Shown here: positions 8,023 to 42,003 of the stretch, piece by piece | How the letters are laid out: every line of letters starts with the position of its first letter | Numbering within the stretch: position 1 is the first letter of the stretch | Source of the DNA: Terricaulis sp. | GTDB taxonomy: Bacteria > Pseudomonadota > Alphaproteobacteria > Caulobacterales > Aquidulcibacteraceae | Reading direction: 5' to 3' | Length of the DNA: 64,000 nt | NCBI GenBank assembly: GCA_024707365.1 | Contig: JANPZV010000005.1 | Span: 1,612,001-1,676,000 of the forward strand | Notes under the pieces: generated by a model | Database searches by the model: none | The model's input: the letters and a program-made list of their open reading frames with translations, nothing else | Told to the model about the DNA's origin: nothing | Translations under genes and position numbers: made by a program

Positions 8023-8024
8023 AA

Positions 8025-19297: not shown

Positions 19298-19366
19298 TTC
19301 GAGCTTCTTACCAATCTCGCGCCGCTGGCCTTGCGCCGGCGGCGCTCTTCTTTCGAGGTCATCATC

Positions 19367-20287: not shown

Positions 20288-21167
20288 GCGCATCGTCGCG
20301 GCCTGCGGCGGCATCCTGCTGGATGGTGGAACGCGCGCCCTGATCCCTGGGCCCAATCACAGCCACAAGGATCGCTCGGTCTCGCTGCGCCTGACGGAGG
20401 AGGGACGTATCCTCATCCATTGCTTCAGCCCAAAGGATGATTGGCGCGACGTCCGCCGCGTCCTCGCTGATCTTGGTCTGTTGGACGAAGAAACTGGCGC
20501 CGGATCGCCAAGCACGCGCTGGTCGCCACTGAGGGTCGTGGCGCAGCCGCTTGATGAGGAGCGCGTCGCTCGCGCTGGGCGGATTTGGGAAGAAAGTGGC
20601 CCGCTAAAGCACTCGGTGGCGGAAGCCTATCTGCGCAAACGCGCCGTTCCGGCGGGTTGGTGGGGCAGTCAGGCGCTTCGCTTTCACGGGCGCATGACGA
20701 GCCTCGAGGATCGCGACAAGCGGCCAGCTTTGGTCGCGGCGATCAGCGATGCCCAAGGCGCGCTTCAGGGCGTGCAGGTGACTCTGCTCAGTGCGCACGG
20801 AACGGCCAAGGCCGCCTTGGCGACGCCCCGACGCGTCATCGGCAAATTGATGGGCGGGACGGTTCGTCTGGCCGATGCGCAGGACGAGCTCGTCATCGGC
20901 GAGGGCGTCGAAACCATGCTGACCGCCTCGGAGGTGTTTGGCGTTCCGGCTTGGGCCGCGCTCAGTGCGGACAATCTCAGCCGCCTCATCATCTCCCATC
21001 CGCTGCGCCGGCTCATCATCGTGGCCGATAATGACGAAGCCGGGATGCGCGCTGCGCAATCCTTGCGTGCTCGGATGGTCAGTTCGACGATCGTCGAGAT
21101 CGAAGCAGCGCCGCCGGGCTTCAATGATTGGAACGATTGGGCGCGTGCGCAAACACCAGGCGCGTGA
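20274..21167 (+). CDS. Toprim-domain, primase-like protein
   Basis: The N-terminal 80 residues look like a zinc-less primase or plasmid-replication domain (HCFSPKDDWRDVRRVLADLG). A linker follows (ARAGRIWEESGPLKHSVAEA, RAVPAGWWG), and then a Toprim domain: ELVIGEGVETMLTASEVFGV with the conserved Glu, and LRRLIIVADNDEAGMRAAQS with the DxD pair. Such proteins accompany ArdC and ParB-like genes on alphaproteobacterial islands and may prime synthesis of the complementary strand after transfer. It overlaps the ArdC gene by 14 bp. The gene is intact, 297 residues. Confidence 0.85.
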   Translation: MSRLERIVAACGGILLDGGTRALIPGPNHSHKDRSVSLRLTEEGRILIHCFSPKDDWRDVRRVLADLGLLDEETGAGSPSTRWSPLRVVAQPLDEERVARAGRIWEESGPLKHSVAEAYLRKRAVPAGWWGSQALRFHGRMTSLEDRDKRPALVAAISDAQGALQGVQVTLLSAHGTAKAALATPRRVIGKLMGGTVRLADAQDELVIGEGVETMLTASEVFGVPAWAALSADNLSRLIISHPLRRLIIVADNDEAGMRAAQSLRARMVSSTIVEIEAAPPGFNDWNDWARAQTPGA

Positions 21168-23824: not shown

Positions 23825-25973
23825 TTATTCGGGAAGCGCAGGGGGCGGGGGCGGGTTTTGGTCGCCCGCATGCTCTGCGTTTGAGCCAAATCGATATGTC
23901 AGGGTCGCCCGCGCGATTGTTCCTCGGCCGCTCGTGCGGCTCCATTCATAATAATCATTGGCGCTGACGATGGTTTCGCTGTCGGCGGAATCGAAAATGT
24001 CCTCAACGGCCAGCACCGCGGCCAGTCGAGTCGTCAGACTTCTTCGCCAGGTCAGGTTGGCCACGACGAACGCCTCCGACTCAGATTGAAGGGTGTGTCG
24101 GGGCCCTTGAAAGCGCAATTCAAGTTGCACCTGATCGGCGTTGGGCGCCGATTGATCGCGGTCGCGATATTCAATTTGGGCGCTTCCTGAGTACTCGAAA
24201 GCGGACTCGCCGCGTATAGAGCCGCCGCGCAACACATCGAATTCGCGATTCAGCGCGTTGGCGCTCAGCGAGTAACGCCAGTTTTGCTTGACTGGGCCGC
24301 GGAGAACGACTTGCACGCCGCGCTCCTCGCTGCGACCAGCATTCACCACCGTCGAATAGGTGACATCGCCGACGGTTTCGGTAAGGGGCGAGATGATGTT
24401 TTCGCTAACACGGTCATAGGCGGTGAGACTGTAGGTTCGACCTCTGTTCTGGTAGATGAAATTGATCTCATAGGCATCTGTCGTGGTAGGATCGAGGTCT
24501 GGATTGCCGATGAAGGCGCGCCGAGCTTCCGAATAGTTGATAGTTGGATTGAGCATAGCCAATCCGGGCCGCAAAATGCGGCTCGAATAACTGAGATCAA
24601 GGTCAATCTGATTGCTGATCGCGCGCCGTATATGCAAGGTCGGAAATAGGCGAGCATCGTCCTCGCTCTGCCTGCCGGCGCTGGAATTGATCTCGCGCGC
24701 AAAGGCTTCAAGCCGCAATCCTGGCAGCCAAGTCCATGCGTCGATTGTGAATTGGTATGTTCCATAAATGGCCGCTGTTTGACGCTGCCAGCTGATAGAG
24801 GCGATAGAGTCCGCGCCTGCCCCGCTGAACACGTTTAGCCGCGTCAGCTGACTCTGATCGTTGTTTTCGAAGGAGCCGCCCAAGGTTAGCAGTCTGCCTT
24901 CTGAGAGCGGGTGTTCATAGTCGGCTTTGATGGTTGCCGTGGTCGAAGCGAAGGCGGCGGTGTAGAGGAAGTTGTCTTCCGGGGCGGCGGTTGCGGGCGT
25001 TAGCTCAATCAAGCGATCTGCGTCGTTTTCGTAACGTCCAAGTAGAATGTTGATCTTCAGCGCCTCACCGTCGGTATCCCCATCCTGCTGAAAGTCGAAG
25101 CTTAGCCGATTGATGTGATATGTGGATTCATTGTGCTGCAATTGCGTTGAAACGGGGCCAGCGAGATCAGCGCGCCACACAGTCTGCGCTAAGTTTATGT
25201 CGCCGGTCGTGTGGTCATAAGCGAGGCTAGACTTCCGCCTGCCTGGTGGCTGATGGGAGGCGCGCAGTCCGAGCGACCAGTATGAAAAAATCGGTTTCTG
25301 ACGCGCCGTCTTCATAGAAGCTCGGGCTGGCGCCGTAACCCTCGCGTGTGCGCTCCACTGCTCCTTCGCTAGGGTTTGAGGAGTGGTTGAGGCGAGCGCC
25401 CAACGCCCAAGGGCCGCGCATCCAGTTCGGCGAAATATAGGCCTGATAGCCGCCAAAGGAGTCCGTACTGAGGGAGCTTAGCCCACTCATGCCCTGCGAA
25501 CGAAAACGCTGCCGCGTGACAATGTTGATGACGCCGCCCGTGCCCTCTGAGGAGTGTTGCGCGGAAGGATTGGAAAGCACTTCGATGCGCTCGATATCAT
25601 CTCCGTTCAACCCGCGCAGTGTTTGTTCAAGCGAACCCTCCGGCGCCGGTTGCCCGTTGATTTGAACAACGACATCAGTCGAGCCGAGCAGGGTGACCGC
25701 GCCTGAGGGAGCAACGCTGACAGCGGGCACACGGCCAAGGATGTCGAACAGATTGGTGGTCTGGGCCACTGGATCGTCGCGCAAGGTATAGACGCGTCGG
25801 TCAATGCGGACTTGATCGCCAGGCGCGGCGCTGACGATGATGGGATCATCGGACTCATCCGAAGCCCTGGATTGTTGCTCTATTGAGGCTTGCGGCGGTT
25901 CTTGCGCGGCGGCGGCGGTCGCCAGCAAAGCCGCCAGGGAAAACGCGGCGCTGCACTTCCAAGCTGAGATCAT
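23825..25973 (-). CDS. TonB-dependent outer-membrane receptor, frameshifted
   Basis: The start ATG at 25971-25973 gives a signal peptide (MISAWKCSAAFSLAALLATA). The plug domain is visible (TTNLFDILGRVPAVSVAPSG, VVVQINGQPAPEGSLEQTLR, IERIEVLSNPSAQHSSEGTG, GVINIVTR). A frame break near 25285 separates it from the barrel; one T fewer in GATTTTTTCATAC restores ETDFSYWSLGLRAS. Barrel strands continue to LTYRFGSN, followed by a short proline-rich tail. Joined length is about 715, normal for the family. The protein would import a metal chelate or other large solute across the outer membrane using TonB energy. The substrate is unknown. Confidence 0.85.
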
Positions 25974-26343
25974 GAGATTTTCCGCCGTCCTTGTGTCGTG
26001 CACGTAATGTCCGAATGATAGGACAACATATCTTTTCTGTTTGGTCCAGCGCGTCGGGCAAGCGCGGCATATTGGGCGATCCGAGCGCGCCGGCGGATTT
26101 GCGTTTGGACTGCCCAATCCCGGCTCCAGGCGACTTAGCCTCGTGTCGAGGCGGCGGTTCGCGGCCGATCCTACGTTCTATGCGTTCGCCGCCGCCACGC
26201 GGTTGCGGCGTGTCATCGTTATTGTCGCCGCCAGCAGGGATCATGAGAGAGCGCCCGGACGCCTTGTTTTGGGGAGGAGGCGACATCAAGGCAGTGCTGC
26301 CGTCGCTTGCCTGTGCTCGGCTGTGTCGAGGCGGGATAAAGTT
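25974..26343. other. Intergenic region upstream of the TonB receptor
   Basis: It holds the promoter of the minus-strand receptor at its left end. Open frames on both strands look like shadows (proline/arginine rich), and no gene is supported. Confidence 0.4.
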
Positions 26344-26443: not shown

Positions 26444-27139
26444 TCAGCGCGCGGCCTCATAGAGCCGGTTCACTTCGTTCCAATTCACAACGCTCCACCA
26501 AGCCGTAAGATAGTCGGCGCGGCGGTTTTGATACTTCAGATAATAGGCGTGCTCCCACACATCGATGGCGAGCAGCGGTGCGCCTTGTGTTGGCGCGACA
26601 TCCATCAGCGGATTGTCTTGATTGGGGGTGCTGGTTATGCGCAAGGCGCCGTCTGCGACGACGAGCCATGCCCAACCTGATCCGAACTGTCCGGTTGCTG
26701 CGCGGTTGAACGCCGCTTTGAACGCGTCCATCGAGCCAAAATCGCGGACGATTGCTTCTTGTAATGCTGCTGAGGGCTCACCGCCTTGTCCGACCGGCGC
26801 CATCAGGCGCCAGAACAGGCTGTGATTATAGTGGCCGCCGCCATTGTTGCGGATTGCGGCGGGCAATTGGCCAGCGTTCGCCAATAGCGCCTCCAAAGGC
26901 GTCGCCGCGAGTTGGGCATTTTCCGCCAGAGCGGCGTTGAGATTATTCACATAGCCCTGATGGTGGCGCCCGTGATGGATTTCCATCGTCTGGGCGTCGA
27001 TTGCGCCCTCAAGCGCGTCATACGCATAGGGCAAAGCAGGGAGTGTGTAAGAATTGCTCCCCTGTTGAGCTTGGGCGCCTTCTATGGAGGCGCAGCCCGA
27101 TAGGGCAAAGCCCAGAGCACCAATGATAAGGTATTTCAT
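26444..27139 (-). CDS. Fe/Mn superoxide dismutase, predicted lipoprotein
   Basis: The N-terminus [20 protein letters not shown] is a lipoprotein signal with lipobox LSGC, so the enzyme should be exported and membrane-anchored. The mature part has all SOD metal ligands: His in [20 protein letters not shown], His in [13 protein letters not shown], and Asp and His in [20 protein letters not shown]. The helix [15 protein letters not shown] is also standard. It converts superoxide to peroxide and oxygen outside the cytoplasm. It lies in line with the ferredoxin reductase and two membrane proteins on the same strand, which points to a redox-stress function for the cluster. Confidence 0.9.
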
Positions 27140-27164
27140 AAATTGGCTCCGTTCACTTTATCGC

Positions 27165-27954
27165 TCAATCAACGAACGCCCGTTCGATGACATACTCGCC
27201 AGGGGCGACGTTGGCGCCTTCAGTCAGGCCCTGTGATTCCAATAGAGCCGCAACATCGGCGATCATCGCATTGCTGCCGCACACCATGACGCGATCTTGA
27301 TCCGGATTAAAGGCGTTCGCAGCGACGCCAATATCATGAAACAATTGCCCGGTTTCGATCAGGCGCGTAATCCGCGCAGTGCGCACAAAAGCTTCGCGCG
27401 TCACGGCCGGCACGTAATGGAATCGGCCGCGCGCCAAATCGCCCACCAGCGGGTCGTCAAACAGCCCTTTGGGTAAGCAGCTCCTGATGAGCCAGTTCCG
27501 AGACCTTGCGGACGCAATGGACGAGGATAACCTGCTCAAAGGCTTCAAACGCCTGAGGATCGCGAAGGATGCTCAGGAAAGGGGCGAGCCCGGTGCCGGT
27601 GGCGAGCAAGAACAGGCGCTTCCCTGGCTTAAGCGCATCAAGCACCAAAGTTCCGGTCGGCTTTCGGCCTAGTAAAATCGGATCGCCCAACTTGATCTCT
27701 CGCAAGCGCGACGTTAGCGGGCCATCCTCAACTTTGATCGATAGAAATTCCAATTCTTCAGCGAAATGTGGGCTTGCAATCGAATAGGCGCGGACGATGG
27801 GGCGCGGTTCGCCTTCGAGGCCGATCATCACAAACTCGCCCGATCGAAAGCGAAAGCTTGCGGGGCGCGAGATTGAGAAGCTGAAAAGCCGATCATCCCA
27901 GTGTCGGACAGATTTCACTTCCTCAACGAAATAGGCTTTAGCCTGCGCGTTCAT
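27165..27954 (-). CDS. fpr: Ferredoxin--NADP(+) reductase, frameshifted
   Basis: The start MNAQAKAYFVEEVKSVRHWD leads to the FAD domain (RPIVRAYSIASPHFAEELEF with the RxYS motif) and the NADP domain (LFLLATGTGLAPFLSILRDP, VILVHCVRKVSELAHQELLT). The frame breaks near 27472, where CCCAAAGGG appears to carry one A too many. The second frame continues LFDDPLVGDLARGRFHYVPA and has DQDRVMVCGSNAMIADVAAL. The C-terminus ends VIERAFVD, typical of bacterial Fpr. Joined length is near 262. It shuttles electrons between NADPH and ferredoxin or flavodoxin. A 7Fe ferredoxin lies 2.2 kb away. Confidence 0.88.
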
Positions 27955-27966
27955 GTCTGTGTCCCC

Positions 27967-28000
27967 AAAAAAGAGGCGATCGAGTAAACTCGATCGCCTC
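27967..28000 (-). terminator. Rho-independent terminator after the first membrane paralogue
   Basis: On the minus strand, GAGGCGATCGAG, loop TTTA, CTCGATCGCCTC is followed by TTTTTT. The perfect 12-bp stem lies 10 bp after the stop of the membrane gene and 12 bp before the fpr start. It therefore separates the two transcripts. Confidence 0.9.
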
Positions 28001-28010
28001 AGTATTGTGC

Positions 28011-28945
28011 TTAGCTTTGTGACTTCTGCTCAGTGACCTGACGTCTCTGGGGGGCTATGGCCGCCAATCCCAGAAGAGCGCCAAGCGCCAAGAGAAGCAC
28101 CAGCATGTGCACGGGGTAGTCGAGCGGGTGCAGCCAGAACTCCTCATACCAGCCGTACTTCACCGCAAGTTCGCCGATAGCGAGCCAAAGGATCGCTTTC
28201 GTAGGGATCGCCCAACGGATCGCCGCCATGAGGCGGGTGAAGCGAAGCAGCTTCCAGGTGAGGTAGAGCCCCCAAACCGCCGCTCCGACAAACACAAAGT
28301 ATGTGAAGGGTGATGATAGCCCAAGAAGCGCTCGTCACCGAGAAACAGCGTGACCGCATAGCAGAACCAGATCACGTAGACGGTTTCGATAAAAGTGATG
28401 CGGCAGACATTGCGCGACTGCCCTGAGTCCGGTTTGCCGAGATTGAGGCGCAGGACCCGCTGGATCCATCGAAAAGCATCACATTTCGTATCTTTGTTGA
28501 GCACAAAGAACAGCAGAGTAAGGATGCAAATGCCGATTGAGCCTTGGATGAAGAACAGATGCGCCGCGCGCGTAAGTTCGCCGTCCGCCGAGATCGGGTA
28601 GCGCGGCATGTCGAAGCTCAATGGATTGAACTTGAACGCGTAGGACGCGTAGCAAGACCAGAGCAGAAGCCCCGCCACCCATCCGATCAAGGTGCCCGAA
28701 ACCTCCTTGTTGCGCCGAATGCCCCAAATCAGCAGCACCACCATAATGGCGCCCATGGTCTGGTAGAACAAAAACTCATGGCTGGGGCCGAAGAGCTTTT
28801 TCGTCGCGACAACGCACGCATGCATGATCGGGTTGCCAACGAGTGTCAGCAAAAGCGCAATGAGACCGATTAAGGGCGGCTTGTAAAACCGCATGAGGCC
28901 TTTGGGCGGCGCTGATGGCGACGGTTCAGTATCTGTGACGGCCAT
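28011..28945 (-). CDS. Uncharacterised polytopic membrane protein, paralogue 1, frameshifted
   Basis: The start at 28945 has a strong ribosome site (GGAGGAGGG). Seven or eight hydrophobic segments are visible: FYKPPLIGLIALLLTLVGNP, TMGAIMVVLLIWGIRRNKEV, GTLIGWVAGLLLWSCYASYA and GSIGICILTLLFFVLNKDTK, then a cytoplasmic loop (CDAFRWIQRVLRLNLGKPDS) and more helices. The frame breaks near 28300, where one missing T in CCTTTCACATAC restores HHPFTYFVFVGAAVW. Joined length is about 311. It is very close to the neighbour at 28997 and more distantly similar to 30839. No named domain is recognised. Neighbours suggest a redox or metal role. Confidence 0.75.
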
Positions 28946-28996
28946 GAATTTCCCTCCTCCGAATCGTAGCCCTCGCCCGTGATGTCGGGCGCGCGG

Positions 28997-29914
28997 CTAT
29001 GAAGCTTTTTGCTCAGATGTGCTCTGGCGCCGTTGAGGCGCAATGACGGCAAGGCCGATCAGCACCAGCAGCACGATGCCGAGGCCCAGCATGTGGAATG
29101 GATAGTCGAACGGGTGCAGCCAGAATTCTTCGTAATAGCCGTACTTCACGGCGAGTTCGCCGACGGCTGTCCAAAGGATGGCTTTTGTAGGGATGGCCCA
29201 GCGGATCGCCGCCGAAAGACGCGTGAAACGCAGAAGCTTCCAGGTGAGGTATAATCCCCAAACGGCGCAACCGACAAACACGCCATAGGTGACGGGGTGA
29301 TGATAGCCCAAGAAGCGCTCATCACCGAGAAACAGCGTCACGGCGTAACAGAACCAAATCACATAGACTGTTTCAATGAATGTGATGCGGCAGAAATTCC
29401 GCGACTGTCCAGAATCAGGTCGGCCGAGATTCATGCGCAACATGCGCTGTATCCAGCGGAACGCATCACATTTCGTGTCCTTGTTAAAGACAAAGAACAA
29501 CAGCGTGAGAAAGCAGATGCCGATCGATCCTTGGATAAAAAAGAGATATGCGGGGCGTCGTCCTTGACCTCCATCGGTCACGGACATCGCCGGCATTTCG
29601 AGGCTGATCGGATTGAACTTGAAGGCATAGGACGCATAGGCGGTCCACAACAACAAGCCTGCGATCCATCCGATGAGCGTCCCTGACGCTTCCTGGTTGC
29701 GTCGGATGCCCCAAATCAAAAGCAGCAGAACGATGGCGCCAAGAATTTGGTAAAACCAAAGCTCATTCGCGGGGCCTAGTGTCTGCTTGCTCCACACCAC
29801 CAATGCGTGGGTGATCGGGTTGCCGATCATGGTCAGAGCGAGCGCGATCAAGCCGATGAGAGGCGGCTTGAAATACCGCTTAAGGTCGCCGGCTCGCGAA
29901 GCTTCCGCGGACAT
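28997..29914 (-). CDS. Uncharacterised polytopic membrane protein, paralogue 2
   Basis: Intact copy of the family, about 305 residues from the ATG at 29912-29914 (MSAEASRAGDLKRYFKPPLI). A run of G before a second ATG at 29918-29920 makes that start possible too. Helices include GLIALALTMIGNPITHALVV, ILGAIVLLLLIWGIRRNQEA, GTLIGWIAGLLLWTAYASYA and SIGICFLTLLFFVFNKDTKC. Conserved family features are the CDAFRWIQR loop, NFCRITFIETVYVIWFCYAV, LGDERFLGYHHPVTYG, WGLYLTWKLLRFTR and AIRWAIPTKAILW. It shares strand with paralogue 1 (51 bp apart) and is divergent from the ferredoxin gene. The exact function is unknown. Confidence 0.8.
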   Translation of the reverse strand: MSAEASRAGDLKRYFKPPLIGLIALALTMIGNPITHALVVWSKQTLGPANELWFYQILGAIVLLLLIWGIRRNQEASGTLIGWIAGLLLWTAYASYAFKFNPISLEMPAMSVTDGGQGRRPAYLFFIQGSIGICFLTLLFFVFNKDTKCDAFRWIQRMLRMNLGRPDSGQSRNFCRITFIETVYVIWFCYAVTLFLGDERFLGYHHPVTYGVFVGCAVWGLYLTWKLLRFTRLSAAIRWAIPTKAILWTAVGELAVKYGYYEEFWLHPFDYPFHMLGLGIVLLVLIGLAVIAPQRRQSTSEQKAS

Positions 29915-30157
29915 TCGCATCCCCCCGATCGTCGCAGAAAATCGACAAGCCATTGCGGCTGTCGTTAGACGACATGAGAACTATATGTTATTATGACGGC
30001 ATGACAAGAAGGTTGGTGGCTGCTCGACCGTGAGTGGGGCAGGCGCCCATTTAGGGGGCTTGGCCGAGCAATCTGCTCCCATCATGAGCGCGCCCGGCAT
30101 TCTTGGTTCTTGTTCGCATGGCCTGAAAGGCGCTGTGCTTAGTGAGGGGAGAACAAG
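29915..30157. promoter_or_regulatory. Divergent promoter region between membrane paralogue 2 and ferredoxin
   Basis: This 240-bp gap holds AT-rich sequence in a GC-rich neighbourhood (CTATATGTTATTATGACGGC near 29981-30000). The string ATGTTATTATGAC has a near match, inverted, at 30643-30656 (TGACAACATAATAA). A shared regulator for both sides is possible, but no known box (Fur, Fnr, OxyR) fits well. Confidence 0.35.
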
Positions 30158-30496
30158 TTGGCCTATGTCGTCACCGACGCGTGCGTTCGCTGTAAGCATC
30201 AAGAGTGCGTGGAAGTCTGCCCAGTCGATTGCTTTCACGAGGGGGAAAATTTCCTCGTGATCAATCCTGATGAGTGCATTGATTGCGCGGTGTGTGTGCC
30301 GGAATGTCCGGTGGACGCAATTATTCCTGCGAAGAAGGACAAAGGCGGACGGTGGCTCGATATCAATAAGCGTTACGCGAAGCTGTGGCCGGTGATCACC
30401 GTGCGTGGCGTTGCGCCTGCAGACGCGGCGGAATTTGCCGAGGAGACCGATAAGTTCGAAAAGTATTTCAGCGAGGCGCCGGGCAAGGGCTCCTAG
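30158..30496 (+). CDS. fdxA: 7Fe ferredoxin (3Fe-4S/4Fe-4S)
   Basis: Start is TTG at 30158-30160 after a good ribosome site (GGGGAGAACAAG). The protein begins [20 protein letters not shown] with the first cluster cysteines and [20 protein letters not shown]. It continues [17 protein letters not shown] with the second cluster motif. The C-terminal extension ([20 protein letters not shown] and on) is typical of FdxA at 112 residues. It is a low-potential electron carrier, here between membrane paralogues 2 and 3 and near fpr, its likely reductase. Its 3' end is followed by a strong terminator. Confidence 0.93.
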
Positions 30497-30532
30497 CGCT
30501 CGACGATATTGGTTGTTTAAAGATCGTGTGGC

Positions 30533-30564
30533 GGCCCAGCGTATTGCGCGCTGGGCCGTTTTTT
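30533..30564 (+). terminator. Rho-independent terminator after fdxA
   Basis: GGCCCAGCG, loop TATTGCG, CGCTGGGCC followed by GTTTTTTG. It lies 37 bp after the fdxA stop and ends that transcript before the next gene. Confidence 0.88.
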
Positions 30565-30838
30565 GTGCGCCGCAACATTGTGTGCGACCGCAAAAATGCA
30601 CGCACAGCGCCATTTTCCGCCCATTTAGTGGTCATGTAGCAATGACAACATAATAAAAAAGACGGGCTTTCTGCGCGCTCGTTCGCGGTGCTCATGCGCT
30701 TGAAAAGAATAAATAAAAGTCAGCACCCCTGTCGGGAATATGTGCCCGCATGCGAAAAATGCGCGCTGCGCGCGCTTGACGCACTTAAAAGTTATGTGAT
30801 CACGTTGTTATGCCAATATATCAACGCGGGAGGGCGTT
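30565..30838 (+). promoter_or_regulatory. Promoter region of membrane paralogue 3
   Basis: Unusually AT-rich in parts (ATGACAACATAATAAAAAAG at 30642-30661). TTGACG at 30776-30781 could serve as a -35 element. A repeated GTTATG (30791 and 30807) flanks the palindrome GTGATCAC (30797-30804). A regulated promoter is likely, but no known operator is identified. Confidence 0.35.
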
Positions 30839-31804
30839 GTGTCTCAGCGTGACACGCAGTCGTCGGCAGCGTCGACTGAGTCTGGCGAGGTTGAGCGGCC
30901 CTACGGCAGGCTCTATCGCGCCCCATTTATCGGGCTTGTGGCGTTCTTTGTAGCGCTGCTTGCGAGCCCTATTTTTCATAGTGTCAGCGTGCTCGCCAAG
31001 CATGCGGGGCCGGAAGAGTACGCGATTTACATCCACCTTGCGATTGGTGCGGTGGGGCTTGCTGTTTTTCTTTATGGCGTCCGCAAAGAAGGCGAAGCGA
31101 TCGGAACGATCACGGGCTTTGTCGCGGGAAGTTTGTTGTGGGTCGGCTGGGCGAGCGCCTCGTTTTACTATCATGCGCACGGCGCAGGTATTGATCCGGT
31201 CCAGTTGAGCGAGACGCAGCGCCGAAATGCGAATTTCATTTTTATTGAATCGTCGTTTGCAATTTGCGTCGTCGTTTTGCTGTTCTTCGTGTTCAACAAA
31301 GATACAAAATGTGACGCCTTTCGTTGGATCCAGCGGGTCACGCGCATCAATTTGGGGCGCGCAAGCTCGGGGCAAGGGCGTAATTATTGCCGCATCACTT
31401 TTCTCGAGACGATCTTCGTCACCTGGTTTTGCTACGGCTTCGCACTTTATCTGAGTGACGATCGCTTTCTCGGTCGTCATCACGTGGCGACCTACGCCAT
31501 TGTTGGCCTTATGGCGCTTTGGGCGCTGTATCTCATCTGGAAGCTTTTGCGGTTCGAGCGCGCGATGCCAGCATTGCGCTTTGCTATCCCTACCAAGGCG
31601 ATCTTTTGGATCCCTTTTGGCGAATATGGCCCCAATTACGGCTTCTACGAGGACGTTTGGGTCAAGCCGCTCGAATACACCGGCCCGATGTGGGCCGTGT
31701 TCATCGTTTTCATCGGCACTCTAGCGGCCGTGGTGCTTGTGCACCAGCGGCGGGAGGCGGCGCGCAATGCGCGTCGCGCCGCGCGTATCGCGGCGGAGTC
31801 TTGA
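30839..31804 (+). CDS. Uncharacterised polytopic membrane protein, paralogue 3
   Basis: Start is GTG at 30839 after GGGAGGGC. About 321 residues, intact. Helices: YRAPFIGLVAFFVALLASPI, IGAVGLAVFLYGVRKEGEAI, TGFVAGSLLWVGWASASFYY, SSFAICVVVLLFFVFNKDTK. The family loop CDAFRWIQRVTRINLGRASS and NYCRITFLETIFVTWFCYGF are kept, as are LSDDRFLGRHHVATYA and WALYLIWKLLRFERAMPALR, then FAIPTKAIFWIPFGEYGPNY. The basic C-terminus (RREAARNARRAARIAAES) should be cytoplasmic. It is 46 bp upstream of a TonB receptor on the same strand and likely co-transcribed. This links the family to uptake across the outer membrane. Confidence 0.8.
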   Translation: MSQRDTQSSAASTESGEVERPYGRLYRAPFIGLVAFFVALLASPIFHSVSVLAKHAGPEEYAIYIHLAIGAVGLAVFLYGVRKEGEAIGTITGFVAGSLLWVGWASASFYYHAHGAGIDPVQLSETQRRNANFIFIESSFAICVVVLLFFVFNKDTKCDAFRWIQRVTRINLGRASSGQGRNYCRITFLETIFVTWFCYGFALYLSDDRFLGRHHVATYAIVGLMALWALYLIWKLLRFERAMPALRFAIPTKAIFWIPFGEYGPNYGFYEDVWVKPLEYTGPMWAVFIVFIGTLAAVVLVHQRREAARNARRAARIAAES

Positions 31805-31850
31805 ATTGCCCGATCTTGGATTTGCGGTTGGGTTTGAGAGGGGAAGTGTA

Positions 31851-34432
31851 ATGTTCATGGCTAGGTTATCGCGTGCTTGTTTGCTGGCTTCGGCCGCGGC
31901 GTTGTTTGGCGCACCGCAGGCAAACGCGCAGGAGGCCCAGGCCGGCCAAGTGGTCGACTCAGGTGAAGAGATTGTCGTGACGGCGCGGCGCGCGCTGAAT
32001 TGCTGCAGGATACGCCGATCAGCGTGCAGGCATTCACTGCCGCAGAGATTGAGCGCCTCGGTATCACCGATATGACGGATGTTATTTCGCTATCGCCGTC
32101 TTTGGTGTTTGAGCAAGCGTCAAACCCGGAAGCCAGCACGATTACGATCCGTGGCCTTAACCCGAGCCGCGGCCGCGCCAATGCGGCTATCCTCGTTGAT
32201 GGTGTGGACGTCACGACCGAGGCGATTGGATCGTCCGGCGGCGGCATGCTCATCAATACGCATTTGCTTGATATTGAAAGGGTGGAAATCGTCCGCGGCC
32301 CGCAAGCGGTTGAGTATGGGCGCAGCGCTTTCGCCGGGGCCATCCAATACGTGACGGCCGATCCTACGGAAGAGGCGTCAGGGCGTGTCTCGGCGCAGTT
32401 CGACGAAGATGGCGGCAATAATCTCGGCTTGTCATTCAGCGCTTCGCCGTTGCCTGGCGTGTTTGGCTTTCGCGTCGGTGTGAATTCGTGGCGCGAGAAG
32501 GGCGACTATGTTGATGAAGCGCTGCTAAGCGAGCACGGCGGCGCCAGCGGCGGCGGTGTCGCGCTGTCGACGCTCCTCACGCCGACCGAGAATCTGCGTA
32601 TGAAGACACGCCTCGAATATTTCGAGAGCCAAAGCGCGCCCGAAGCGCAAGTGTTGTTGCGTTCGAACAGCGGCCTGGTGAACGCAACAAACAACACCAA
32701 TTTTGCGACAGCGCGTACTGCTGGCGTTATCAGCGCATCGCCCTTTGCCGTCTGGACGGGCGTTGTGCCGGATGCGTCCGAGGTTGGGTTGCCGCAGATG
32801 AGCCCCGATCCTGTGACGGGCCAGCGTTTCGCGGGCACCGAAAGGGACGCTTTTCGCTTTAGCAACGTGCTCGACTACGATGTCGGCCATGGCGAGGTGC
32901 GTGGCGTCGTGAGCTATCTGCACGGTAATTTCTATTCTCGACAAGACAGTGACAAGGACGCCGAGCTTTCCGGAACGCCAGGCTCGATGATTGATGTGTC
33001 GCGTCGGACCGGCGTGCAGGAATCGAGCAGTGAAGTTGATCAGTATACGCTAGAGCTGCGTTACGCCTCAGATTGGGACGGCCCGATCCAGGTCGTTTTG
33101 GGCGGCTTGTATTGGAAAGAGGAATCGGAACGAATTTCCTCTACGGTGAGCGTAACCTGTGCGAACACCGTGGCGCTTTGCGCGGTGAACCCCAATCCTG
33201 TCTTTGACCAGATTGTGTACGTGCCTGATCCGACGACGCGGGCGATTGAGCACACGTCGTTCTACGGCCAAGTGGCTTGGGACATCAGCTCGACGCTCTC
33301 GCTCTCAATTGGCGCGCGCTATGTGAGCGAGGACGAAACGGTGATGGGCGCGGTCTGTGGCCTCCCTACCAATGCCTTTGGCGTTGTCTGTGGCGATCCC
33401 TACGCGACTTCGGCTGCGACGCCGTCCGTTTATGGCCCGTCTTCTTTGTTGGCCAATCGCATCACCATGGCGTCTGCATATTCGCAATACGTGACGATCG
33501 ATCACAGCGAGAGCTACGTCACCCCGCAAGTGATCCTTGAGTGGAATCCAAGCGATGATCACATGCTCTATGTGAGCGCCTCCGAAGGCGTGAAGCCGGG
33601 CGGCACGTCCACTGTGGGTGCGGGCGCGTGGTTTGACTCAGATCTGGACGGTGACACGGATGAACTCGCCTATGAGCGGGAATCTGTCTGGGTCTACGAA
33701 GTCGGCGCGAAATCCGCTTGGCTTGGTGGGCGCTTGCGCACCAATGCGGCGCTTTTCTATCAGGACTATACCAACCAACAGGTGGCGACGTCGGTGGCGA
33801 CCCCCTCCGGGCTCAATGCCGCCATCATCCAAAACGCCGGCGCCTCGCGCGTCTACGGTTTGGAGCTGGAAGGCAGGCTGCGGGTGACCAATCACCTCAC
33901 GCTTAGCGCAGCCTACACCTATCTTGACGCCGAATATGTGGATTTCACCTTCGCCAGCGATTCCAAGTCCCAAATCATCTTGGGGCCGGAATGCAACGTC
34001 ATCACTGTAGGCACGACCCCGATGTGCGAGATCCGCTTGGGCGGCAATAAGCTCGAGCGTGCGCCAGAGAACGCGGCTGTTGTGATGGCGCGCTATGATC
34101 GCCCGGATTCGTTTATCGGCCCCGAGATTGGCTGGTATCTTGAAGGTACGGTCACCTATCAGGGCGAGCGTTTTGTTGACCAGTTCAATACGCGCGTGCT
34201 TCAGGACTACACGCTGACCGATATTCGGTTTGGGTTGACCAGTGATGCTTGGACGCTTGGCTTCTTTGTCAATAACGTGTTTGACGATGATACCATCCGG
34301 CAAGCGGACGTCCGCACTGGTGATGTAGACCGTTATGTTGTTGGCGGTGGCGTGGCTTCGAGCACGAATGTTGTGCTGGTAACCTTGCCTGATCCGCGTA
34401 CATACGGCATGCGTTTGAGCTATCGCTTCTGA
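31851..34432 (+). CDS. TonB-dependent outer-membrane receptor, frameshifted near the TonB box
   Basis: From the ATG at 31851 the signal peptide is ARLSRACLLASAAALFGAPQ and the TonB box region GEEIVVTARR. The frame breaks near 32000; one missing C in CGGCGC(C)GCGCTG restores RRRAELLQDTPISVQAFTAA. The plug follows (VISLSPSLVFEQASNPEAST, ANAAILVDGVDVTTEAIGSS, RVEIVRGPQAVEYGRSAFAG), and then a long barrel ending in GMRLSYRF. About 860 residues in all. It resembles receptors of the FecA/CirA style, with unknown ligand. It follows membrane paralogue 3 and ends at a strong terminator. Confidence 0.9.
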
Positions 34433-34842: not shown

Positions 34843-35375
34843 CTAGTGATGGATATGCTCATCTTCCGCCGCTCGCGCTTCGTGCAGCGTAAGTATGGGC
34901 GCTGGCCGAGGTACCGAGCCCCACGCCGCGCCGTGCGGTGGTATCTGCTCCCAGCGCTGTTCACCGCTGGAGCATGTCTGAACGACCGGAAAATAAAGGG
35001 GGCCCGACCGATCGGGCAGGCGCATCATAACGCCAAATTGGTCAAACTGATCTGCTGGCAGTTCGCCGCGCCAAGTGATCGTGCTCACCCGCTAATCTGG
35101 TGACCGCCTTCGGCTTGGATTGGCGTCGCCAGCGGCGACCGCTCAATCTCTATGCTCCAACCGGGCTTTGGCTGCGGTCTTGCGATGTTGACCCCTTCGG
35201 GGATTTCCACCCGGATCGCCCGCGTGGGTGAATCGCCGCAGCCATGACTTACGCGGAGGAAGCCCGCGTAATACGCGCCGGGTTTGGCTTCCGGTTCAGC
35301 GAACACGATATGGGCGGATGCGGCGGATGCGAGCATCAAGGTAAGCGCGCCGCCAGCGAGGAAGATGCGAAACAT
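34843..35375 (-). CDS. YcnI/DUF1775-family periplasmic protein, frameshifted
   Basis: The signal peptide is MFRIFLAGGALTLMLASAAS, followed by AHIVFAEPEAKPGAYYAGFL; the His after cleavage is a hallmark of the family. Then come VSHGCGDSPTRAIRVEIPEG and ARPQPKPGWSIEIE. The frame breaks near 35088; one missing G in AGCGGGTGAGC restores the join to STITWRGELPADQFDQFGVM. The rest (LPDRSGPLYFPVVQTCSSGE, RWEQIP) matches the C-terminal half of DUF1775. YcnI proteins bind copper through the N-terminal His. It is the last gene of the copper-type operon. Confidence 0.85.
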
Positions 35376-35386
35376 GAAAGGGCTCC

Positions 35387-36031
35387 TTAGCTCAAGAATG
35401 CGCGCAATTGCGCGAGGGTGCGTTGGTGGGGATTGCCGTAGCCGATGATGTCCACGACATCGCCGGCCGGGCTGATAAGGAAGGTGATCGCCGTGTGGTT
35501 GACGGTGTAGTCGCCCTCCGATGTCGGCACATATTCGTAGAAGGCCTGGAATGACTTAACGAGCCGGTCGATCTCGGCGCGCGCGCCGCTATAGCCGGTG
35601 AAGCGTGGCCCAAAGCTTTGGAAATACGCCGCGAGATGCTCTGGAGTGTCGCGTGCAGGATCAACGCTGATGAACGCAACCGAGACATCGGCTTCGGTGG
35701 CGCCCAGTTCATCGAGCGCTGCGCTCAGCTCAAACACGGTTGTCGGGCAGACTTCTGGGCATCGGGTAAAGCCGAAAAACAGCAAAGTGGGTTTGCCAGT
35801 AAGATCGGCCCAACGAACCGACTGGCCGTCCTGATTGACGAGCAGGACATCAGAGACGTCGTGGCCAAGGGCGGAAAACATCTCCGCTCTTGTCTGGACG
35901 CTAGGTTCAGAATTAGGCCGCGTGGCCACGTAAATCAGAACCAAAACCACAAGCAGGGCGCTCAAGCCCGCCAGCGCCAGCACCGGCCAGTCGCTCCAAC
36001 GCAATCGCCGCCGCCGGTCAATGGTGTTCAT
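35387..36031 (-). CDS. SCO1/SenC-family copper chaperone
   Basis: Start is the ATG at 36029-36031 (MNTIDRRRRLRWSDWPVLAL) with a membrane anchor (LAGLSALLVVLVLIYVATRP). The thioredoxin-like domain has the copper-binding CxxxC in LLFFGFTRCPEVCPTTVFEL and the conserved His in YTVNHTAITFLISPAGDVVD. About 214 residues, intact. SCO proteins deliver copper to the CuA centre of cytochrome oxidase or act as thiol reductases. It overlaps the PCuAC gene by 14 bp and follows it in the operon. Confidence 0.92.
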   Translation of the reverse strand: MNTIDRRRRLRWSDWPVLALAGLSALLVVLVLIYVATRPNSEPSVQTRAEMFSALGHDVSDVLLVNQDGQSVRWADLTGKPTLLFFGFTRCPEVCPTTVFELSAALDELGATEADVSVAFISVDPARDTPEHLAAYFQSFGPRFTGYSGARAEIDRLVKSFQAFYEYVPTSEGDYTVNHTAITFLISPAGDVVDIIGYGNPHQRTLAQLRAFLS

Positions 36032-36502
36032 GGCCGGAGCTCCGTTGCGCGTGACGCGGACGTGCGATGAACTCAACCTCAAACGCGCCGGCGCGTTCGA
36101 AGGTGAGCGTGACGATGATGCGTTCGTCCGCATGGATCGGCGCTACTCAACACCGAAGAACATGATGTGCAGCCCGCCCGGCGCGAGCGTGACGCTTCCT
36201 CCGGGCGCCAATGCGATGGCGTGAACTTGGCGCATGCGCATGACGCCGTTGTCCATGAGCATTTCGTGCAACTCAACGCGCGAAGCGCGCGGGGATGTTG
36301 CCGAGAGCAGCCGGTCAGGCGCCGCGCCGTTGTTGTGGAGTGTGACATAACCAGCCGCGACATTGGCGCCGGGATTGGTCGTCCCCACCCATGGATCATG
36401 GATGGCGATGGCGCCGTGGGTTTGGCCGTGGGCCGATGGGTAGAGGGCGAGCCCCGCCAGCAAAAAGCTGACGGCGACGATACGCGAGAAGATGGTTTGC
36501 AT
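36018..36502 (-). CDS. PCu(A)C-type periplasmic copper chaperone, frameshifted
   Basis: Signal peptide MQTIFSRIVAVSFLLAGLAL. The mature domain has the copper ligands of the DUF461 family: HDPWVGTTNPGANVAAGYVT, then VELHEMLMDNGVMRMRQVHA and APGGLHIMFFGVE. That gives the H(M)x10Mx21HxM set. As written it stops at 36143. One missing G in GTTGAGTAGCG restores VEVAPIHADERIIVTLTFER and a His-rich tail (SSGHEHH), ending at 36018 with overlap into the SCO start. It would pass Cu(I) to SCO or CuA. Expected order and partners are present. Confidence 0.88.
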
Positions 36503-36516
36503 GTGAACGTCCTTGT

Positions 36517-38532
36517 TCAGAAGCGATAAGACAGCCCGCCATAAATTGCGCGGCCTTCACCGGGGTAGAAGACGGCGGTATTCGCGCCGGGCGCGCTCGC
36601 ATCAACGACCGCGCCAAATTCCGGGACGTATGTTTCATCGGTCAGATTGCGCGCATCGAGGAACAGCGAGACGCCATTAGCGAACTCCCAGCCGGCGTTG
36701 AGCGACCAGATTGTGTAGCCAGGCGCTCTCAGCGTATTGGCGTAATCGACCCAAGTTTCCCCTGGCCGCCATTCGACGCGTGGGGCGATGAACCAGCCGG
36801 CGCTATGGGTGTAACGGAGCATGGCGCCGACTTGGTGTTCTGGCGCCACCGGCATGTCATTATCGCCATAGATGGGATCGCCATCAAAGAAGAAGTCCGA
36901 ATAGGTGTAGCTGCCGCGCAGCAGAAGCCCTTCGGTAATTTCCCAATCGATCGCAAGCTCAACGCCCTGATGCACGGTTTGATGTGCGTTGAAGAACGCC
37001 GCAGGCACGCCACTTGTTGGGTTGAAGCTCAGAATTTCGTTGTCGATCTCGGCGCGATAGAGTGTGACGTCCCATGCGAGCGCGCCAACGCGTCCGCGCG
37101 CGCCAATCTCGCCGGTCCATGCCTCTTGCGGCGCGATCGGCACAAAGCCCGGATAGGGCGATTGAACGAGGGCGCCATAATGGGGCGGCTCCACTGAGTT
37201 GGTGAGGTTGGCGTAGATCTGGGCGCCGCTCTGGCTTTCCCAAAGCACGCCAATGCGCGGGGCGAACCAATCGTCGTCTAGGTCGTCATTGTTGCTGGGG
37301 TTCAGGTTGTCGACATAGTCGCGCGTGAAGCGGCCATAGGCGCCGCCCGCGACAAGCGCCAAGTGTTCGGTCACGAAAAGTCGCGCCTCCGCGAACAGCT
37401 CCATCCCGGTTGCTTCACGCCGGCTGTCGCCAGCGATAGGAAACATGACGGGGCCAAGAATCTGATCAACATGGCCCTGGCGATAGGAGAGGCCGACATA
37501 AAGATCGGCGCGTTTGCCGGCCATTTCGCCCTGCCAATCGAGCCGCCCAAACGCGCCTTGGGTCTCGACTTGCTGATCGATCAGCAATGAGATTGGGTGG
37601 TAGAGATCGGTGGTGGTGGCGTAGAGGCCACCTTCAAATAGCAGCGCATCCGAGAAGCGCCAGCGCCCCTGCAGACTGGTGCGGAAAATCGTCTGGTCGC
37701 GCTGCCAATCGAAATTGGCGGCGGTGAAACTCGCCTGAGCCGGATCGGCGAGCGCTTGGGCGAGCGTCAGCGTGCCTGGAACCTGTTGATCGATGTCGGC
37801 GCCATAGACGATGAGACGAAGCTCACGGTCCTCGCCGAAACTGCGCCCGATATTCAGCGTGCCGCGCACTTGGTGCTGTTCGGCATGGTCGCGGAAGCCG
37901 TCGCCCTCCAACCAGGTGATGGCGGCGAAGGCATCCCAATCCCCGGAGCTGCGCGCGATTTGCGCCGCCGCGCGTCGAAAGTCGAACGAGCCGGCCTCAA
38001 CGCGCAGGAGGTTTTCTGATTGCGCGGTGCGTCCGGTGGGGGTGACGAGGTTGAGCGCGCCGCCCAGTTGCGCTCCGCCAAAACGCAGCGCATTGCCGCC
38101 GCGATAGACCTCGACATAGCGCGCCGTCAGCGGATCGATCTTCTGGAAATCCGCGAAGCCATCGGCGTCGGCAAACGGAACCCCGTCTTGGGCAAACAGT
38201 ACGCCGCGCTGGTGATAGGCCTGATCAAGGCCCGAGCCGCGGATGGAAAAGCGTGATTCCTCGCCGTAGCGCCGTTGCGCGAGCACGCCCGGCACGTCGC
38301 GGAGAAGATCGGTGAGGCCGGTGGCGGCCCGCGCCTCGAAGCTCTCATTGGAAACGACCGAGACCGCGCCCGGCGTGCGCGAGAGCCGCTCGCGCGCGTC
38401 GGCCACGACCGGAGGGTCCTCTGAATTGGGGCGGGCGGTGACGATGATGGCGTCAGTTGTGATGGTTTGCGCGAACGCGACGCATGGGGCGAGCGTCAGC
38501 GCGCTGACAAGCAGCGTGCATTTGAAAGACAT
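36517..38532 (-). CDS. TonB-dependent receptor, likely for copper
   Basis: A 671-residue intact receptor. Signal peptide MSFKCTLLVSALTLAPCVAF, then the TonB box ITTDAIIVTA. The plug carries SVVSNESFEARAATGLTDLL, RDVPGVLAQRRYGEESRFSI, YVEVYRGGNALRFGGAQLGG and ALNLVTPTG. The barrel ends in YGGLSYRF. No ligand can be read from the sequence. Its position, 14 bp upstream of the PCuAC gene in one operon with SCO and YcnI, supports copper or a copper chelate, as in OprC-like systems. The gene is preceded by a DUF2946 protein, another copper-locus marker. Confidence 0.85.
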   Translation of the reverse strand: MSFKCTLLVSALTLAPCVAFAQTITTDAIIVTARPNSEDPPVVADARERLSRTPGAVSVVSNESFEARAATGLTDLLRDVPGVLAQRRYGEESRFSIRGSGLDQAYHQRGVLFAQDGVPFADADGFADFQKIDPLTARYVEVYRGGNALRFGGAQLGGALNLVTPTGRTAQSENLLRVEAGSFDFRRAAAQIARSSGDWDAFAAITWLEGDGFRDHAEQHQVRGTLNIGRSFGEDRELRLIVYGADIDQQVPGTLTLAQALADPAQASFTAANFDWQRDQTIFRTSLQGRWRFSDALLFEGGLYATTTDLYHPISLLIDQQVETQGAFGRLDWQGEMAGKRADLYVGLSYRQGHVDQILGPVMFPIAGDSRREATGMELFAEARLFVTEHLALVAGGAYGRFTRDYVDNLNPSNNDDLDDDWFAPRIGVLWESQSGAQIYANLTNSVEPPHYGALVQSPYPGFVPIAPQEAWTGEIGARGRVGALAWDVTLYRAEIDNEILSFNPTSGVPAAFFNAHQTVHQGVELAIDWEITEGLLLRGSYTYSDFFFDGDPIYGDNDMPVAPEHQVGAMLRYTHSAGWFIAPRVEWRPGETWVDYANTLRAPGYTIWSLNAGWEFANGVSLFLDARNLTDETYVPEFGAVVDASAPGANTAVFYPGEGRAIYGGLSYRF

Positions 38533-39491: not shown

Positions 39492-39992
39492 TTGCGTTTG
39501 ATTGGGGGCGTGCATGCGAGGACCCATAAGTTTTGGCTAGGCGGCGCTGCATTCGCGGTGGCGGCGCTCGTTCTAGATGGCGCGCCACACCACGTCGTGC
39601 TGTTCAATCACAGTCCATCGGTGCCGGTAGGTTTTTACATCCGAGAAACAGGTGAGCCCGCCCGCGGGATGTTTGTGACCGTGCGCGCCCGCGACGTCGC
39701 GCCTATCGAAGCCGCCGCGCACCACTATGACGACGAAGACGACCGCTTCATCAAACGCCTGGCCGCAATGGCGGGCCAGCAGGTGTGTAGCGATGGACGA
39801 AGGCTGAGCGTCGACGGCGTTCAAATCGCGATGGTGAAGAAGCGGGATGGCGTTCCGGAGGGATGGGTCGGGTGCCGCACGCTTGCGCCTTCTGAAATTC
39901 TCCTGCTTGGCGATAGTGCGGACTCGTTTGACGGGCGCTATTGGGGGCCGATATCGGACGATTTGATCGAAGGCGTCTGGCGTCCGCTCTGA
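39492..39992 (+). CDS. traF: TraF-type S26 signal peptidase of a conjugative element
   Basis: Start is TTG at 39492 (RLIGGVHARTHKFWLGGAAF). After one N-terminal membrane helix come the S26 motifs: the catalytic Ser in FNHSPSVPVGFYIRE, the Lys in DRFIKRLAAMAGQQVCSDG, and box E in EILLLGDSADSFDGRYWGPI. About 166 residues. TraF peptidases mature the conjugative pilin in IncP-type systems and mark ICEs in alphaproteobacteria. It precedes the relaxase gene on the same strand. No pilus or type IV secretion genes are seen within the window. Confidence 0.85.
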   Translation: MRLIGGVHARTHKFWLGGAAFAVAALVLDGAPHHVVLFNHSPSVPVGFYIRETGEPARGMFVTVRARDVAPIEAAAHHYDDEDDRFIKRLAAMAGQQVCSDGRRLSVDGVQIAMVKKRDGVPEGWVGCRTLAPSEILLLGDSADSFDGRYWGPISDDLIEGVWRPL

Positions 39993-40234
39993 GTTTTCTC
40001 CAACACTAGGATTTGCTGTGCAACGCGCGGCAACATTGCGGGACGTCAGTGCATGCGAGGTCCACTGGGGAAGGAGAAGGGCGATGACGAAGGGTTGCGG
40101 TGGAGAGCAAGATTAAGAGCGCCGCAGGTTTTCTTCTGAGGCTTGTGAATGCTAGAGTTTTCGCGCGGCATGTTTGATCATCGTGCAGCGAAATCAGCAG
40201 CATCGCTTCAAATTCAACCTGGCGTGACGCGGCA
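39993..40234. other. Gap between traF and the relaxase, possible oriT location
   Basis: 240 bp without a supported gene. Transfer origins commonly lie beside relaxase genes, but I could not recognise a nic site or a clear inverted repeat. Confidence 0.25.
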
Positions 40235-42003
40235 ATGGCCAAAGCATCACTTTCCGAACGCCTGAAGACGTCAGCTCTCGTGCGCCCAAGCGATGTCATG
40301 CACGACATTGCGGCTGTGCGTGACATGGCTTTCTTTCGCGAAGAGGACGGTCTCACCGGCAAAGTCCACAAGGCTGTCGCTTCGAGTGGATCTGCGCGCA
40401 GCGGCGCGCTTGGCGGGCAATTGTCCAAGCTGCTTTCCGGACGCCGGCCCGGCCGCCGCGTTCGCGCGATCGGTGCGAATGCCGCATTCGCGCAAGACCC
40501 GCGTCAGCGCGTCGTGGTGACGGTGTTCTATCAAGGCCATGGCGGGGGCGGGGCGGGCAAGCTTATTGCGCACGGCAAATATCTCGAACGAGACGGCGCC
40601 GGGCCGGAAGGCGAGCCAGGTCAGTTCTATGACCGCGAAGAGGATCGTGTGGAGGCGGGGTCTCGGCTGACCCAATGGGCGGACGAGGACAAGCGCCACA
40701 TGCGTTTGATGCTCGCGCCCGAGAGCGGAACCCGCGTCGAGGATCTGAAAGACTTCACGCGCGGGACGATGGCCCAGATGGAACGCGACCTCGGCGCGCC
40801 GTTGGATTGGGTGGCGGTCGATCACCACAACACCGACAATCCTCATGTGCACGTAATCCTGCGCGGCCGCCGGCGCGATGGACCAGACCTGATCATCCCA
40901 CGCGATTACGCTACTTGGGGGCTGCGCCATGCGGCTCGCGAGGTGGCCACGCAGATGCTTGGGGATCGCGGCCGCGATGACGAACGTCTGGCGCTTGAGC
41001 GTGAGGCGCGCGCGGAGCGAATGACACGGCTTGATCAGTTGCTGGCCGCTGAACTGAAGCCTGGCAAGACGTATCGCATTCAGGCGATCGGACAGGGGCT
41101 CGAGCCCACGCTTTGGGCCGCGCTGCGAAACCGCGTTCGCGAGCTGGCGCGCATGGGGCTGGGACGAGAGGAGAAGCGCGATCACTTTCGTCTCGATCAC
41201 GACTGGGCGGCGCGGCTTGAGGACATCGGCAAAGGGATCGATCTCCGCCGCCGCCTCGGCCGCGAACTTGAGCCGGGCCAAGGCCGGCTCAAACTCTATG
41301 ACCGTTCGATGGGGCGTGTCGTCGGTCCGGTCTTGGAGTCCGGCAGACGCGGCGAGACGGGCAAAGGCTATGTGATTGTGCTTGACGGCATGAAGCGTCC
41401 GGTGCTCGCCAATGTGCGCGAGCGCGATGGTGCGGGTCTGCAGACAGGGGCGTTGGTTGCGATCGAACCGAAAGTCCACGAGGGCGCGGGAACGCGGGTC
41501 AAGGTCGACCGGCTTTCCGAAATGCCGATCGCGACGCAGATAGAGGCTCCGCTGAGACCGAGCTTGATCGTGAAATGGTCCGTCAGCTCACTGGCGAGGC
41601 GCCGCGCCTGCCAAACATGCGAGAGGTCCGCAACGCCATCACCGAGCGGGTCGGTTGGCATCTACGACAGGGGAACGGTGGCCGCGACCTCACTGGCCGC
41701 TTCGAATTCAACGCGGGCGCGCTGGAGCGGCTACGCGGCTCTGAGCTCTTGCGCGCAGAAGTCGCGCTGACGAGGACGACCGGCAAGCGAGCTATCAATA
41801 TTGCTGATGGGTTGGAGCGCGAATGGCGCGTGCGCGGGTTTGTGCAGCTTCACCAAGGTAGGTTCGCTATGCTTGAGCGAAACGATGGCGTGGCGTTGTT
41901 GCGCGTAACGCGGTCGCTCACGCTGAAGCAAGGGAGGGCCTATTCGCTCTCAATCACCAACGGCAAAGTCAAAGCGACGCCGTCTCTGGGGTTGGATCGC
42001 TGA
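40235..42003 (+). CDS. Relaxase/mobilisation protein with DUF3363 domain, frameshifted
   Basis: The N-terminal relaxase domain has the histidine triad in DWVAVDHHNTDNPHVHVILR and an upstream region with the likely catalytic Tyr (KLIAHGKYLERDGA). A central RRRRDGPDLIIPRDYATWGL-like stretch follows (RRDGPDLIIPRDYATWGLRH), and then the DUF3363 region (YRIQAIGQGLEPTLWAALRN, HFRLDHDWAARLEDIGKGID). The frame breaks near 41555; a missing G in GCTCCG(G)CTGAG restores the join to LDREMVRQLTGEAPRLPNMR. Joined length is about 589. It would nick the element's oriT and pilot single-stranded DNA into a recipient. DUF3363 relaxases usually pair with TraF and DUF736 genes on alphaproteobacterial ICEs. Confidence 0.88.

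Follow-up and report, generated by a model that had tools for sequence, protein, structure and literature searches.

In a 64,000-nucleotide stretch of a Terricaulis sp. genome (GCA_024707365.1, contig JANPZV010000005.1; hereafter called the window, with positions counted from its first letter), we identified members of a rare family of membrane proteins that is without a name in the databases searched (Pfam, NCBIfam and PDB). Three members, P1 (28011-28945, minus strand), P2 (28997-29914, minus strand) and P3 (30839-31804, plus strand), are encoded beside a ferredoxin-NADP reductase (fpr), a FdxA-type ferredoxin (fdxA) and a TonB-dependent receptor. We tentatively propose that P1 to P3 are eight-helix inner-membrane proteins and that, in the window lineage, they may serve a TonB-dependent uptake cassette as its inner-membrane step. 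Judged from the sequences, a TonB-linked uptake role is the best-supported reading for this lineage and for the Bacteroidales-type lineages. Across the whole family the evidence points in more than one direction, and the alternative of a membrane enzyme, or of a general partner for organic compounds that are imported, has to be taken seriously.

In the proposed cassette, the receptor would carry its ligand, most likely an iron chelate or a heme-like compound, into the periplasm, and the family member would move the ligand, or the metal freed from it, across the inner membrane. For the release or processing of the ligand, low-potential electrons would be supplied in the cytoplasm by NADPH, Fpr and FdxA; Fpr is able to feed iron-releasing reactions such as that of heme oxygenase. 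In Bacteroidales, a PepSY protein would perform the reducing step instead of Fpr and FdxA. The three copies in the window may differ in cargo. We infer transport function, direction, cargo and electron use alike. A wider proposal, which we hold to be rather doubtful, is that the family represents a new kind of inner-membrane transporter and the missing step of some TonB-dependent iron or heme uptake systems of Bacteroidales and Proteobacteria, with PepSY or dedicated Fpr/FdxA as the respective reduction module.

A Membrane Protein Family without a Database Name

P1, P2 and P3 are homologues, far beyond chance. The two pieces of P1 share 76% and 78% identity with P2 (E 6e-116 and about 2e-45), P2 and P3 are 43% identical (E 7e-92), and the larger P1 piece is 43% identical to P3 (E 1e-64). 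The original prediction, made from the DNA letters, had described a set of three homologous proteins with seven to eight hydrophobic segments. The homology was borne out (43-78% identity), and P2 (305 amino acids, with a possible upstream start at 29953) and P3 (321 amino acids) are open, but P1 is split by a frameshift into two overlapping open reading frames (ORFs; 28160-28945 and 28011-28295). In the phylogenetic tree, which includes two members found after the conservation alignment was made (loci L076 and L077), P1 pairs with P2 (support 100/99), and P3 is sister to a 234-residue piece of the member at a Brevundimonas locus, L011 (99/97).

The prediction could assign the family to no named one, and this held in our searches. 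Scanning 32 aligned members singly against Pfam and NCBIfam gave no clear hit to a characterized family; isolated rows only were returned (best E 0.0098), each matched family appearing in one member alone. The PDB contained no credible relative by sequence, its sole row ("subunit-i/j", E 0.21) being taken as chance, and a Foldseek search of viral models gave a best E of 0.20. Four known families were considered and rejected. PF03929, which marks the PepSY_TM ferric/siderophore reductases, was found in 0 of the 32 members, whereas separate neighboring proteins at loci L005 and L006 do match it. Neither a FecCD/BtuC permease of the ATP-binding cassette (ABC) type nor the copper membrane monooxygenase subunit AmoC/PmoC was matched by Pfam among the same members (Foldseek of the latter, 9cl6_C: E 3.2, TM 0.24), and fold comparison with Nramp/MntH (8e60) gave E 0.37 and TM 0.16. 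A literature search found no work linking most of Fpr/ferredoxin, TonB receptor, Caulobacter and siderophore reductase; the family was not sought under other names.

The Cassette Recurs in a Brevundimonas Genome

The family had been predicted to be linked to fdxA, fpr and a TonB receptor. This linkage recurs at L011, a locus of the metagenome-assembled genome (MAG) of Brevundimonas sp. UBA7635 (G445), where the same four genes are found as in the window: fdxA (2976-3314, minus strand, divergent from the family member), the family member (3706-4633, itself split), fpr after it (4764-5585) and, after fpr, a TonB receptor confirmed by Pfam (5656-8301). Across the 26 family loci that we surveyed, however, the linkage is loose, with fpr and fdxA at 2 of 26 and a receptor at 9 of 26. 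The receptors of the window and of L011 are 50% identical over 783 amino acids. Among 60 relatives of the window genome, the best-scoring match listed for the window receptor reached 28% identity over positions 2-743 (shorter pieces reach 42%). A plasmid search with the window receptor gave no match at E 1e-60.

In the window, the ferredoxin (fdxA, 30158-30496, plus strand) matches the NCBIfam model FdxA_Protbact with 147.6 bits (cut-off 135), as claimed beforehand. Both fpr (27165-27954, minus strand; ORFs 27457-27954 and 27165-27548) and the receptor gene (31851-34432, plus strand) are present as predicted but are split by frameshifts, which is a correction to the prediction. The receptor had been placed 46 bp after P3, which holds for an ATG at 31851, but this ATG is out of frame with the receptor body at 32000-34432. 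P2, P1, fpr and a superoxide dismutase gene run left, and fdxA, P3 and the receptor gene run right.

Both genomes carry additional redox genes, a point in favor of the proposed cassette. The window genome has a second FdxA (G000:C5:847242, 68% identical), and a single FdxA was found in each of 12 same-genus genomes examined. It also has a second Fpr (G000:C3:55523, 64% identical to the 165-residue query piece). The Brevundimonas genome has a second strong Fpr copy (57%) and a weak third match; among 10 other genomes of its genus group, two separate copies were found in G728 only.

The superoxide dismutase gene (26444-27139, minus strand) encodes an Fe/Mn enzyme, confirmed by Pfam (Sod_Fe_N/C), with a lipobox read by eye, in line with the lipoprotein that had been claimed. 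The gene lies next to the cassette and shares its strand with fpr, P1 and P2. An oxidative-stress unit, in which this enzyme, Fpr and FdxA protect the cell and the membrane proteins act as sensors or accessory parts, would account for this position. We consider such a unit very unlikely, as inspection by eye revealed no superoxide dismutase next to the family member at L011, L005, L006, L061, L076 or L077. Because none was recognized in L011, membership of the window gene in the cassette is itself uncertain.

Genomic Neighborhoods of the Family

The survey covered 6 kb around the family gene at 26 loci, which are not independent of each other and several of which lie on contigs that end within 6 kb; a 3.4-kb contig with two copies (G443:C229) and the fragment G441:C101 were left aside. 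The nine loci with a TonB receptor are the window, L005, L006, L061, L010, L011, L050, L076 and L077. The receptor was confirmed by Pfam in six of them (window, L005, L010, L011, L050 and L076) and assigned by BLAST clustering in L006, L061 and L077. Taking as a guide a 3.4-Mb genome with about 20 receptor hits, one would roughly expect a receptor at close to 8% of loci.

The three Bacteroidales-type loci (L005, L006 and L061) share the same order, a HmuR-like TonB receptor followed by HmuY and the family gene (3/3). Pfam confirmed HmuY in L005 and L006, and in L061 it was recognized by eye because it resembles these two. The family gene of L061 begins 4 bp past HmuY, and in L006 a 93-residue ORF separates HmuY from the first of two family genes. 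A PepSY_TM gene comes next after the family gene in L005 and L006 (by Pfam), not in L061. No HmuY match was obtained in the window genome, though the controls gave no match either. L006 lies on a faecal contig deposited as "Bacteriophage sp." (MT835990), yet its family member is 65% identical to that of Prevotella. The locus resembles a Bacteroidales chromosomal heme-type operon and holds a transposase-like gene. We rejected a phage origin, as no phage gene was recognized by eye; a search against phage families was not run.

In L050, a TonB receptor and a Peripla_BP_2 protein are located nearby, together with permease and ATPase genes named by eye. L076 and L077 share the order major facilitator superfamily (MFS) gene, family gene, propeller gene, TonB receptor.

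Some neighborhoods would suit a different role. The family could be a membrane-bound catabolic enzyme, for example an oxygenase or hydroxylase, with Fpr and FdxA as redox partners and TonB receptors that import an organic substrate, iron not being involved. Rieske-type and FAD oxidase genes adjoin the family gene in L051 and L057 (named by eye), and a molybdenum hydroxylase is found in L058 (by Pfam) and L050 (by BLAST). Carbon-nitrogen hydrolases of a nitrilase cluster occur in L059, L062, L076, L077 and L054 (Pfam-confirmed in L077; a doubtful ORF in L054), alpha/beta hydrolases in L007-L009 and L053 (by eye), and propeller proteins in five loci. Likewise, 5 of the 12 genomes or large records with family members have four to six matching places each, as would be expected if substrates had diversified. 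On the other hand, the three Bacteroidales-type loci have the form of HmuY operons, and PepSY_TM is present in two of them; the family has a single invariant histidine; and Pfam, NCBIfam and the PDB returned no match to an enzyme family. We regard the enzymatic role as unlikely, although it is the alternative that we take most seriously.

The propeller just mentioned is a beta-propeller, probably exported, encoded near the family gene in 5 of the 26 loci (L051 6026-7294, L057 3487-4644, L065 6629-7702, L076 5059-6195 and L077 8174-9274). Pfam PD40 was found in the L076 protein, the one tested, and one distant plasmid match was obtained. In L008 and L009, two divergent family members are near neighbors and are accompanied by TetR, HlyD-like and ABC exporter genes, all named by eye.

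Predicted Structure and Conserved Residues

An AlphaFold2 model of P2 built from 13 sequences (mean pLDDT 79.7, pTM 0.80) has eight membrane-length helices, in agreement with the number of hydrophobic segments read beforehand. Conservation was assessed in an alignment of 32 rows (A4), in which the P1 and L011 rows are incomplete and from which G443:C229, the G441:C101 fragment, the truncated second L007 copy, L076 and L077 are absent. Invariant columns are G82, G86, W90, C149, W154, R172, E181, W187, Y190 and R238; the end of the P1 row past the frameshift is out of frame in alignments A2-A4, so that 31 rows, not 32, underlie R238. H36 and E253 are each present in all 31 rows that extend over them; D198 is conserved in 31 of 32 rows and H206 in 26 of 32. 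H36 is the sole invariant histidine column. Loop charges suggest, by the positive-inside rule, that both termini are cytoplasmic; H36, D198 and E253 would then be nearer the periplasmic side, and a basic loop in the cytoplasm would contain C149, W154 and R172. This loop between helices 4 and 5 (residues 143-173) has seven lysine or arginine residues against three aspartate or glutamate residues and holds the invariant Cys149, Trp154 and Arg172. Helices 3 and 7 had hinted at a 4+4 helix repeat within the protein, but this was rejected (hhalign probability 0.1-0.2%).

The prediction had suggested that the family may be the inner-membrane part of a metal-chelate uptake or reduction system fed with electrons by Fpr and FdxA, and had named a buried His/Cys site as possible support. 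The linkage to TonB receptors and HmuY agrees with the uptake part. A conserved two-ligand heme site is absent: H36 alone is invariant, and Cys149 stands alone in its loop. A b-type cytochrome or transmembrane heme carrier, in which two conserved axial ligands are required, was rejected on the same residue. Under a related explanation, the protein would be a transmembrane electron conduit that is reduced by Fpr and FdxA on the cytoplasmic side and itself reduces a metal chelate in the periplasm. The basic loop between helices 4 and 5 and the acidic FdxA (isoelectric point 4.8) make docking conceivable, and the second Fpr copies in both genomes would fit. Nevertheless, we consider an electron conduit improbable: the family as a whole lacks a conserved bis-His heme pair, because H206, the next histidine after H36, is kept in 26 of 32 rows, and fpr and fdxA are nearby at two loci only. 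The single invariant histidine thus counts against this part of the earlier interpretation, which taken as a whole is partly supported.

We therefore favor a permease over an electron conduit, because no heme pair is conserved. Conserved charged residues in or adjoining helices (H36, R172, E181, R238 and E253), combined with the lack of a heme ligand pair, would suit a transporter.

Several findings weigh against a role in TonB-dependent uptake. Foldseek of the P2 model in the PDB returned nothing below E 0.34 and, among the best 50 of 211 matches, no useful TM-score to any transporter, and the family protein has no internal repeat. No TonB receptor was recognized by eye within 6 kb at 17 of the 26 loci, fpr and fdxA adjoin the family gene at no more than the two loci named above, and other loci have the nitrilase, Rieske, molybdenum hydroxylase, alpha/beta hydrolase or exporter neighbors already described, partly named by eye. 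The cassette is also without a Fur-like site by two simple patterns; across the window, each pattern matched once, at 49702 (chance mean 0.36) and at 25137 (chance mean 2.5), both outside the intergenic stretches of the cassette. A second Fpr is not unique to the window genome, because G006 and G008 (two matches each) and G023 (three) also have more than one; these are three of 24 same-genus genomes, all without the family, of which 10 have one match and 11 none. Finally, the window Fpr is 61% identical to that of L011 but 75% to one in G046, which shows no family member in the 16 kb examined, and FdxA of the window shares 64% identity with its L011 counterpart, compared to 65-69% with the single-copy FdxA listed for the genus. 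The redox genes may therefore have joined the cassette separately.

Comparison with Known Uptake Systems

The XusABC system of Bacteroides thetaiotaomicron combines a TonB receptor, a surface lipoprotein and an inner-membrane PepSY protein in one operon (PMC13142918, PMC10434189); which transporter moves the freed iron through the inner membrane is, according to its authors, unknown (PMC13142918). The Bacteroidales-type loci resemble this arrangement in that all have a TonB receptor and HmuY, and two of the three PepSY_TM as well. They differ in the family gene itself, as the available text of the two Xus papers mentions no further membrane protein of this kind (PMC13142918, PMC10434189). In HiuABC of Caulobacter crescentus, a TonB receptor and a PepSY reductase are accompanied by a previously uncharacterized inner-membrane protein, HiuC, which is needed for some substrates and is described as small (PMC13001220). 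The likeness consists in this second inner-membrane protein besides the receptor and the reductase; with about 300 residues and eight predicted helices, our family is set apart by that description. The heme operon of Porphyromonas comprises HmuY, HmuR and HmuSTUV (PMC10434189, PMC12106395). HmuY and a HmuR-like receptor also precede the family member in the Bacteroidales-type loci, whereas the other hmu products are listed as CobN, a hypothetical protein, MotA/TolQ/ExbB and DUF2149 (PMC10434189, PMC12106395).

This family could fill the step in which metal passes the inner membrane once TonB-dependent import and PepSY-type reduction have taken place. Placed at this point in HmuY operons, and accompanied by its own fpr, fdxA and receptor in two proteobacteria, it would be a concrete candidate.

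Distribution of the Family

The family was absent from all 60 relatives of the window genome (29 of the same genus, 7 of the same family and 24 of the same order) and present in 2 of 384 other genomes of the class and 2 of 397 other genomes of the order. The genomes compared for class and order are samples from larger groups, the sets overlap with one another, and scoring is limited by a loose first look. Further, no member was found in 130 other genomes from the genus group of the Brevundimonas genome or in 273 others from the class of G446. In viral contigs, 79 and 8 candidate stretches were found, none of which was confirmed as a family relative.

Six proteobacterial MAGs have relatives, as do Prevotella sp. 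oral taxon 299, the "Bacteriophage sp." faecal contig, G260, G351, G1007 and G1118. Beside the three genes of the window genome, matching places number six each in G441 and G442, five in G443, four each in G444 and G446, two each in G351 and the Prevotella record, and one each in G260, G1007 and G1118, some being truncated by contig ends; G445 has one family gene in two pieces.

Mobile-Element Setting and Other Genes of the Window

Markers of mobile elements flank the cassette on both sides. On the left (17326-21167, plus strand) are a ParB-like protein near the Pfam cut-off, an ArdC-like anti-restriction protein and a DUF7146/Toprim protein; on the right (39492-41770, plus strand) are an S26 peptidase, probably TraF-like, and a DUF3363 protein with a weak relaxase match. 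The guanine-plus-cytosine (GC) content is 0.56 at 28-32 kb, compared to 0.61-0.68 over 36-64 kb, and 0.55-0.65 on the left side of the window. Because of these markers, the GC content and the absence of the family in relatives, the data fit a recent arrival of the cassette on an integrative mobile element.

The same setting is compatible with a chance assembly, in which unrelated cargo genes were stacked in a mobile element and share no function. The markers on both sides, the GC dip, the adjoining copper-type genes and the fact that Fpr and FdxA of the window are not especially close to those of L011 all point in this direction. Against it, fdxA, a family member, fpr and a related TonB receptor stand together again in L011, and we give chance assembly a low probability.

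The frameshifts in P1, fpr and the receptor are probably assembly errors and not decay, because two further genes of the window, another TonB receptor (23825-26117) and a lysyl-tRNA synthetase-like gene (46397-47454), are split too. The latter, in two frames, has the appearance of a class I lysyl-tRNA synthetase and was named by eye. No Rfam family was found in the window at gathering thresholds. Next to the cassette, and presumably on the same mobile element, genes for DUF1775, SCO1/SenC and PCuAC proteins and a second TonB receptor lie in a row (35085-38532), a group that we take to be, probably, copper-related cargo.

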